From contig NC_011978.1 in the NCBI RefSeq assembly GCF_000018945.1, positions 372,001 to 436,000 of the forward strand: 64,000 bases of DNA. Direction: 5' to 3'. The position numbers and the translations under genes are program-made. The DNA comes from Thermotoga neapolitana DSM 4359 (GTDB lineage: Bacteria; Thermotogota; Thermotogae; Thermotogales; Thermotogaceae). Each line of letters starts with the position of its first letter. Position 1 is the first letter of the stretch. Below are positions 41,222 to 44,953 of this stretch, in pieces. The notes under the pieces were generated by a model. It ran no database searches. It was not told where the DNA came from and saw only the letters and a list, made by a program, of their open reading frames with translations.

Positions 41222-42067
41222 TTGAGAAAATCTCTTGAATCAGGAAAGTGTGTGGTTCTGGAGGTTCTGACACCGCGAGGGACGAATCTAAAAAAGTTTC
41301 TGGATTTCACTGAAAAAGCCTGGGAAACCGGCATCGACGCGTTCACGGTGACGGACATGCCCATGGGCAGGGTGAGAATGGCACCATGGGCGGTCTCTCA
41401 TCTGCTTGTGGAGAGTGGAAAGGAGGTTCTCATGCATTTCACAAGGAACACCAGAAACATGATAAGGATACAGTCCGACCTTCTGGGGTGTCACGCCCTC
41501 GGAATAGAGAATCTTTTGCTCCTCTCTGGAGACGATCCGTCCCACGGGGATTATCCACAGACAACTTCCGTGAACGACGTGGATATACTGGATCTTATAC
41601 GACTCACAAAACTTTTGAACGAAGGAACAGATCTTGCGGGAAACAGGATGTATGGGAAGACGAATTTCTTCGTTGGAGGTGCGTTGAATCCATTCAGCGA
41701 AAAAGATCTGGAGAGGGCAAAGCAAAAAATAGAGGCTGGAGTGGATTTCCTTGTCACACAACCTCTTTTCCAGAGGGATGTAGCACAAAAGATCAAGGAG
41801 AAATTGAGCACGAAAATCCTTGTTTCGATAGCATTCTTCGAAAACGCAAAGCAAATGAATCACTTTTCTGGTGTTCCGGGAATAGAAATACCAAAAGAAA
41901 TAATCGAGTCAGCAGAAAAGGGCGACGAACATGTGAAGGAGAGAAGCTTCGAGGCTGTTCTGAGGTTCGTCGAGGAAACCAGAAACATCGTCGACGGTTT
42001 CTACATAGTGGCCGTCGTAAAGGATCTCGAAAAAATAAGGATGGTGGTGGAGGTTGCCAAAGGTTGA
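41222..42067 (+). CDS. metF: 5,10-methylenetetrahydrofolate reductase
   Basis: Reduces methylene-THF to methyl-THF for methionine synthesis. TIM-barrel flavoprotein of 281 residues. Seen: VVLEVLTPRG (catalytic Glu), LLLLSGDDP and NFFVGGALNP, and DFLVTQPLF. The start is TTG 41222 after AAAGGAGGT. It leads metF, the MetH reactivation gene and metH, and overlaps the next gene by 14 bp. There is no separate MetV gene beside it. Confidence 0.93.
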   Translation: MRKSLESGKCVVLEVLTPRGTNLKKFLDFTEKAWETGIDAFTVTDMPMGRVRMAPWAVSHLLVESGKEVLMHFTRNTRNMIRIQSDLLGCHALGIENLLLLSGDDPSHGDYPQTTSVNDVDILDLIRLTKLLNEGTDLAGNRMYGKTNFFVGGALNPFSEKDLERAKQKIEAGVDFLVTQPLFQRDVAQKIKEKLSTKILVSIAFFENAKQMNHFSGVPGIEIPKEIIESAEKGDEHVKERSFEAVLRFVEETRNIVDGFYIVAVVKDLEKIRMVVEVAKG

Positions 42068-42663
42068 ACTGAATCCGGAGGAAATAAAGATTCCAGACAA
42101 CGTGTTGAAAGCAAAACTTGGATTTGGAAAGGCCAGGGAAATTCCGGAGCATTTCAGAGAATACGTGATGAAGGCTTACGAAGAGTTACTCAAGGTTGCA
42201 GAACCTGTTGTTCTGTGGAAAGATTTCGAAACAAAGGGATCCCTTTCTTTCAACGACATAGAGATCACGGGTGATCTGGCAAAGAAGCATCTGTCGGGTA
42301 GCAAGATCATCACCGTTTTTCTTGCCACGCTGGGAAAAGAGGTGGATAAGAAAATAGAAGAGTGCTTCAAGAAAGGAAACGATCTTCTTGGCTTTTTCAT
42401 AGACGGTATCGCATCGGAGATGGGTGGAGTACGCCCTCAGAAAGGTCGACTCCGATCTGAGAACGAAACGATCTCACCTTGAAGGAAGTTTCAGGATATC
42501 ACCGGGTTATGGGGATTTGCCACTTTCGCTGAACAAAGAGATAGTAAAACTCTTCAAAGACGAAGTGGATGTGGACGTACTCGAAGATTCCTACGTTCTC
42601 GTTCCCAGAAAAACCATCACAGCACTCGTGGGATGGAGGGAAAAGAATGAGGAACAGGCGTGA
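42054..42663 (+). pseudogene. MetH reactivation-domain protein, split by a frameshift
   Basis: Stand-alone homologue of the AdoMet-dependent activation domain of methionine synthase, like T. maritima TM0269, whose structure is known. The first part (42054 onwards) reads through FFIDGIASEM, then leaves frame. The second part resumes as VEYALRKVDSDL and continues to 42663. Removing one G from the GGG at 42422-42424 restores a single protein of about 202 residues. Its start is TTG 42054 inside the end of metF. As given, the first frame ends at 42482 after 142 residues. The cause may be a true mutation, sequencing error or slippage. Confidence 0.85.
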
Positions 42664-44953
42664 AGTCGCAAAAATGTTGTCGGAAAAGGTGTTGCTCCTG
42701 GATGGGGCGTATGGAACGGAGTTCATGAAACTGGGACACGAAGAACTTCCAGAAGAACTCAACATAAAAGCACCTGAGGTGGTTTTTAAGGTCCACAGGA
42801 CGTACATAGAAAGTGGCTCCGATGCCGTGTTGACAAACACCTTCGGTGCCACAAAAATGAAACTGAGAAAGCACGGACTGGAGAACGAACTGGATTCTAT
42901 CGTCAGAAACGCAGTGAGGATCGCAAGAAAAGCCGCCGGTGAAAGACTTGTGTTCGGTGACATCGGTCCAACGGGAGAGCTCCCTTTCCCGCTTGGAAAC
43001 ACCCTGTTCGAAGAGTTCTACGAGAATTTCAAAGAAACAGCCAGGATCATGGTGGAAGAAGGTGTGGACGGCATCATTCTGGAGACGTTCTCCGACATTC
43101 TGGAACTGAAAGCGGCGGTTCTCGCGGTGAGGGATGTTTCAAAGGATGTGTTCCTCATAGCGCACATGACGTTCGACGAGAATGGAAGAAGTCTCACGGG
43201 GACGGATCCGGTGAACTTTGCCCTCACCTTCGATGAATTGGATGTCGATGCCCTGGGTATAAACTGCTCACTCGGACCGGAGGAGATCCTTCCCATCTTT
43301 CAAGAACTGTCTCAGTACACCGACAAGTTCCTCGTCGTAGAACCGAACGCCGGAAAGCCCATTCTGGAAAACGGAAAGACGGTTTACCCCCTGAAACCAG
43401 AAGACTTTGCAGTTCACATCGATTCCTACTACGAGGCAGGCGTGAACATCTTTGGTGGCTGCTGTGGCACCACTCCAGAACACATAAAGTTGTTCAGAAA
43501 GGTGCTCGGAAGCAGAAAACCACTTCCAAGGAAAAAGAAAAAGATCATCGCCGTTTCTTCCCCGTCTAAACTTGTGACGTTCGACCACTTCGTGGTGATA
43601 GGGGAGAGAATAAATCCTGCGGGAAGAAAGAAGCTGTGGAAGAAAATGCAGGAAGGAAACCTGGATGTGGTGGCGAACGAGGCAAAGGATCAGGTGGAAA
43701 AAGGTGCAGAGGTTCTCGACGTCAACTTCGGCATAGAATCCCAGGTGGATCCATCTTATGTGGAAAAAGTGGTGCAGTCACTTCCCTATACAGCAAGCGT
43801 TCCCCTGTCTCTGGATGTGCAGAGTTTAAACCTTGCAGAAAGATCCCTGAGAGTATACCCCGGAAGACCCCTGTTCAATTCATCAAAAGTCACGGAAAAA
43901 GATCTCGAAGAGAAGATAAACATGCTGAAAAAATACGGTGGAGTTCTCATTGTTCTTCTCATGGAAAATGACGTTCCAAAGACCTTCGAAGAGAGAAAGA
44001 AAAACTTCGAAAAAGCCTTGAAGATCCTGGAAGAACACCGTTTTCTGGACAGAGTGCTGTTCGATCCGGGAGTTTTGCCCCTTGGAGCAGAGGGAAAGCC
44101 CACCGAGGTATTGAAGACCATAGAGTACATCTCGAAGATGGATTTCAAAACGACTGTTGGTCTTTCCAATCTCTCCTTTGGGCTGCCCGACAGGAGTTTT
44201 TACAACACGGCTTTTCTCGTTCTTGGAATATCAAAGGGATTGAGTTCAGCCATCATGAACCCGCTCGATGAGAACCTGATGAAGACCCTGGACAGCACGC
44301 TCGTGATTCTTGAAAAGAAAGATCTTCCAAAAGCCGAGGTAAGAGAAGACAAACTGGTGGAAGCGATACTTTCAGGAAGAAGAGAGGACGTTGAAAAAGA
44401 GGTGGAGAACCTCCTGAAAGAGAAAGATCCTCTCTCGATAATAGAGGAACACCTGAGACCGGCCATGGAGAAAATCGGTTTGCTTTACGACAAAGGAAAA
44501 ATATTCCTTCCTCAACTCATTCTTGCTGCTCAGACTGTAAAACCCGTCTTCGACAAACTGGCATCGATGCTTTCATCCGAAAACCAGGGAGAAACCTTCG
44601 TCATAGCGACCGTGAAAGGAGACGTACACGACATAGGAAAGAACATCGTGGCGTCCGTTATCAGGAGTAGCGGTTATCGAGTGGTAGACCTGGGAAAAGA
44701 CGTCGATACCGAAAGAATAGTGGAAGCGGTAGAAAAAGAAAAACCGGTTGCACTGGGACTTTCTGCCATGATGACGACCACCGTGGGAAGGATCAAGGAA
44801 GTCGTTGAAAGCCTTAAGAAGAAGGGATTGAAAGTTCCGGTTATAGCAGGTGGCGCATCTTTGAACGAAAAATTGGCGAAAGAACTTGGAGCCGATTATT
44901 ACGCAAAGAACGCTTCTGAAGCTGTGAAGATATTGAAGTCTCTTGGGAGATGA
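42647..44953 (+). CDS. metH: Cobalamin-dependent methionine synthase without activation domain
   Basis: Transfers the methyl group of methyl-THF through cobalamin to homocysteine. The 768 residues contain the homocysteine domain with zinc ligands Cys207, Cys272 and Cys273, the pterin domain (about 320-560, VIGERINPAGR), a helical cap and the B12 domain with His661 in DVHDIGKN. The usual C-terminal activation domain is missing and is encoded by the preceding gene. ATG 42647 follows GGATGGAGGG and overlaps that gene by 17 bp. I see no cobalamin or SAM riboswitch upstream. Confidence 0.96.
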   Translation: MRNRREVAKMLSEKVLLLDGAYGTEFMKLGHEELPEELNIKAPEVVFKVHRTYIESGSDAVLTNTFGATKMKLRKHGLENELDSIVRNAVRIARKAAGERLVFGDIGPTGELPFPLGNTLFEEFYENFKETARIMVEEGVDGIILETFSDILELKAAVLAVRDVSKDVFLIAHMTFDENGRSLTGTDPVNFALTFDELDVDALGINCSLGPEEILPIFQELSQYTDKFLVVEPNAGKPILENGKTVYPLKPEDFAVHIDSYYEAGVNIFGGCCGTTPEHIKLFRKVLGSRKPLPRKKKKIIAVSSPSKLVTFDHFVVIGERINPAGRKKLWKKMQEGNLDVVANEAKDQVEKGAEVLDVNFGIESQVDPSYVEKVVQSLPYTASVPLSLDVQSLNLAERSLRVYPGRPLFNSSKVTEKDLEEKINMLKKYGGVLIVLLMENDVPKTFEERKKNFEKALKILEEHRFLDRVLFDPGVLPLGAEGKPTEVLKTIEYISKMDFKTTVGLSNLSFGLPDRSFYNTAFLVLGISKGLSSAIMNPLDENLMKTLDSTLVILEKKDLPKAEVREDKLVEAILSGRREDVEKEVENLLKEKDPLSIIEEHLRPAMEKIGLLYDKGKIFLPQLILAAQTVKPVFDKLASMLSSENQGETFVIATVKGDVHDIGKNIVASVIRSSGYRVVDLGKDVDTERIVEAVEKEKPVALGLSAMMTTTVGRIKEVVESLKKKGLKVPVIAGGASLNEKLAKELGADYYAKNASEAVKILKSLGR

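Follow-up and report, generated by a model that had tools for sequence, protein, structure and literature searches.

A single extra base splits the TM0269-type MetH reactivation gene in the Thermotoga neapolitana genome sequence

Stand-alone reactivation proteins of the TM0269 type for the cobalamin-dependent methionine synthase MetH are already known. The title of the study by Huang et al. (2007, Protein Sci 16:1588), which is cited in PMC7857596, states that the reactivation of Thermotoga maritima MetH requires TM0269. The gene for TM0269 (1J6R in the PDB) lies between metF and metH, and its partner MetH (TM0268) has no activation domain of its own. The genome G005 encodes a protein that does not differ from 1J6R in the part that was aligned, and it is therefore taken as T. 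maritima. In T. neapolitana DSM 4359, we found a gene in the same slot, called act here, in the 64,000-nucleotide stretch of DNA that was analysed (the window). The T. maritima partner and the T. neapolitana MetH are alike in lacking an activation domain, and the T. neapolitana act product is 77% (5′ part) and 82% (3′ part) identical to TM0269 at the protein level. Unlike TM0269, the T. neapolitana copy has one extra base, so that the full protein cannot be read in one frame. The features of the region are as follows.

41222 to 42067, plus strand: metF, methylenetetrahydrofolate reductase, intact (open reading frame list; Pfam MTHFR, E=2.3e-23); overlaps the start of act.
42054 to 42482, plus strand: 5′ part of act (TM0269 orthologue), residues 1 to 123, then a 19-residue out-of-frame tail that ends at a TGA (match to 1J6R_A).
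42422 to 42424, plus strand: the frame break, GGG, with one base fewer in relatives (DNA, three-way and genome-to-genome alignments).
42424 to 42663, plus strand: 3′ part of act, read in the +1 frame; includes the conserved segments RISPGYGDLP and PRKTITALVGW (match to 1J6R_A; invariant alignment columns).
42647 to 44953, plus strand: metH, 768 aa, without an activation domain (Pfam); preceded by GGAGG at 42635 to 42639; its first 17 nt are shared with the end of act.

Translation of the first frame of act begins at TTG 42054 and reads MPKVEL through to FFIDGIASEM, then continues out of frame with GGVRPQKG and on to a stop at 42480 to 42482. The +1 frame reads from 42424, beginning VEYALRKVD and ending WREKNEEQA before the TGA at 42661 to 42663. 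As sequenced, the gene would therefore give pieces of 142 aa and 79 aa, compared to about 202 aa expected of the intact protein, and it does not have the one unbroken frame of about 200 aa that a TM0269-type protein has. The 5′ piece matched residues 13 to 136 of the 1J6R_A chain (E=1.9e-58) and the 3′ piece residues 136 to 213 (E=1.8e-39), so that the two jointly span 1J6R_A 13 to 213 at full length, without a gap and with no residue lost. Such a two-piece match to one PDB chain is far beyond chance, and it bears out the identification of a stand-alone MetH activation protein that had been made in an earlier, sequence-only reading of this DNA. The extra G in GGG at 42422 to 42424, to which that reading had attributed the break, was likewise found in an alignment with 13 relatives: the aligned DNA differs by this single extra base, with no compensating indel and no other lesion. 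From its sequence, 42054 to 42663 is a TM0269 orthologue by descent that is broken as sequenced. Neither fragment was recognised by Pfam or NCBIfam models, and Rfam gave no match in the window or around metE.

The surrounding genes form an ordinary metF-act-metH operon in which neighbouring genes overlap, the linkage that goes with a TM0269-type protein. The same neighbours stand beside act in nearly all relatives; it lies directly 5′ of metH in Thermotoga and close relatives, and the order metH-metF-act was seen in more distant Thermotogaceae (L009-L013 and L057-L061). The start of MetH should be placed at ATG 42647, in keeping with its domains and a Shine-Dalgarno sequence, rather than at 42569, where the longer open reading frame begins. 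The Pfam content of this protein (S-methyl_trans, Pterin_bind, B12-binding_2 and B12-binding, the last domain ending at residue 760 of 768) agrees with the earlier statement that MetH lacks its own activation domain. Because metH has its own GGAGG (42635 to 42639) before ATG 42647, it could be translated even if ribosomes quit act early.

The lesion is restricted to the T. neapolitana genome. A profile scan of contigs gave 12 relatives, and a profile search found the act protein in 38 of the 45 genomes of the order; among these 38, only that of T. neapolitana had two pieces in overlapping frames. One open frame of 203 to 219 codons runs across act in all 13 other genomes of the family. In 25 other loci, the residues that flank the break are immediate neighbours or almost, and no odd base separates them. 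The alignment with TM0269 orthologues, proposed as a check in the sequence-only reading, thus placed the site in frame in all relatives; GGG together with two separate proteins is not common to the orthologues. A pattern scan of viral contigs for another strain's copy gave no match.

Relative to the nearest relative (G008), dN/dS was 0.095 for the 5′ part of act and 0.068 for the 3′ part, values similar to those between intact relatives, and it was 0.038 for metF and 0.058 for metH. Therefore, both halves of act are under strong purifying selection, and since no decay is seen, the event either happened too recently for any trace to be left or is not real. The metF gene is 96% identical to that of the nearest relative. 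At the nucleotide level, act is 85-88% identical to that of G008, metF and metH are 90-91% identical, and the surrounding 90 kb block is about 93% identical, with act still under purifying selection.

To gauge the background of similar lesions, 424 kb of T. neapolitana sequence was set against stretches of G008 (400 kb) and T. maritima (440 kb). About six clean single-base frameshifts were found in the 424 kb, in ilvA, an AIM24-family gene, an MFS transporter gene, act, a histidine kinase gene and an HD-domain gene, each backed by one or both of the comparison genomes. Five of the six are +1, and in act, the AIM24 gene and the HD gene a two-base run of G or C is extended to three. In ilvA (threonine ammonia-lyase), the +1 frameshift is seen against G008 as well as against T. 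maritima and lies at about 278430 of G000:C1 (locus L032), G000 being the T. neapolitana genome. The frameshifts in the AIM24-family, MFS transporter, sensor histidine kinase and HD-domain genes, all intact in relatives, lie near 289096, 289946, 494520 and 657906 of the same contig; these five sites are outside the window. Two further genes, encoding a Ppx/GppA protein and a periplasmic binding protein, differ near the C terminus only. Frameshifts were about as dense in the T. maritima assembly, where gpsA and a nuoE-like gene (both named from sequence, not by family search) are among the genes affected; it is hard to believe that the breaks in these two genes are true nulls. Frameshifts or small indels were seen at about 397797, 241738, 266639, 291738 and 344233 of G005:C1, where G000 and G008 are intact.

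We think the chances are a little better than even that the extra G at 42422 to 42424 is a base-calling or assembly error and that the organism itself has an intact Act. Such an error is somewhat more likely than a recent mutation because similar single-base frameshifts recur in the assembly. Replication slippage prefers long runs, and so the extension of two-base runs leans towards an error of base calling or assembly. Real frameshifts, however, also occur in lab-passaged strains, which counts against an error, and none of the broken genes of T. neapolitana is clearly essential, so that these genes do not prove assembly errors. The smaller number of such lesions in G008 fits errors in the T. 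neapolitana sequence and equally fits more pseudogenes there. The competing account, to which we give rather less than an even chance, is a real and recent null mutation, in which the 142-aa product, without the conserved RISPGYGD segment, would be inactive, the reactivation of MetH would be impaired, and MetE would carry methionine synthesis when MetH fails. This is consistent with the presence of an intact MetE (a 737-aa open frame at G000:C1:1247844), with the whole act gene in G009, the one other Thermotoga in which no MetE was detected, and with the good Shine-Dalgarno sequence of metH, which need not be lost with act. Against it, neither half of act nor metH shows relaxed selection, which would require a very recent event, and a two-base run is no mutational hotspot. 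Sequencing error and recent mutation, both named in the earlier reading, remain the two live options.

It is very improbable that the extra base is real and that the overlapping frames still yield a working protein, either by recoding or as a complex of two pieces with a start at GTG 42424. Programmed +1 ribosomal frameshifting or transcriptional slippage could in principle give some full-length Act, and the conservation of both frames and a GGAG just 5′ of the break, superficially like that of prfB, point in this direction; the selection on both frames is equally explained by an event too recent for a trace. The slippery site that had been suggested earlier did not hold up: there are only three Gs, no codon is slip-prone (AUG to UGG and GGU to GUG re-pair poorly in the P site after a +1 move), and close relatives share the flanking bases minus the extra one, so that the site is not conserved. 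Programmed frameshifting would be expected to show a slippery site and a stimulator that orthologues share; none was found, and the extra base is present in no relative; we consider recoding most improbable. A functional split, in which the 3′ part would start at GTG 42424 by means of the GGAG at 42416 to 42419 and the two pieces would assemble, seems to us just as far-fetched. It is true that no start codon precedes GTG 42424 in the +1 frame and that the GGAG lies four bases 5′ of it, but both are ordinary in-frame codons that are also present in close, intact relatives, and therefore they have not evolved for initiation. Furthermore, the 5′ open reading frame still carries its 19-residue out-of-frame tail, and the break lies within the conserved DGIASEMVEYALRKVD stretch.

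If the extra base is an error, Act would work as it does in T. maritima, as a separate, AdoMet-dependent reactivation protein, and would supply the domain that allows the reduction and remethylation of oxidised cobalamin on MetH, a role assigned by analogy with the T. maritima orthologue. If the mutation is real, the truncated product, which lacks the invariant SPGY-D segment, should be inactive; this segment corresponds to the RxxxGY motif of E. coli MetH, which binds AdoMet. The earlier reading held that the loss of this partner would leave oxidised cobalamin unrepaired. The physiological effect was overstated, as an intact cobalamin-independent MetE is also encoded, and because of it a real loss of act would be unlikely to make the organism a methionine auxotroph. 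The act gene is not discussed in an RNA-seq paper on T. neapolitana. The main value of these results is as a caution for annotation: since the act fragments go unrecognised by the models, pathway reconstructions could wrongly infer that MetH cannot be reactivated. With a true mutation, Thermotoga would offer a natural case of MetH deprived of its reactivation partner, to be compared with the MetE-dependent route.

TM0269-type proteins are proposed to share the role of the activation domain that is fused to MetH elsewhere (PF02965, Met_synt_B12), to which the TM0269 family is weakly similar (E=0.047; 8g3h_A, E=0.35). A search of the T. neapolitana genome with PF02965 gave no match, a weak negative because intact TM0269 proteins are also missed. 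Unlike the fused domain, TM0269-type proteins are separate, small and below the Pfam cut-off, and the T. neapolitana copy is, in addition, frameshifted. In this last respect, act resembles the single-base frameshifts of legacy genomes, such as those found at similar density in T. maritima, in which a one-base indel interrupts an otherwise pristine conserved gene.
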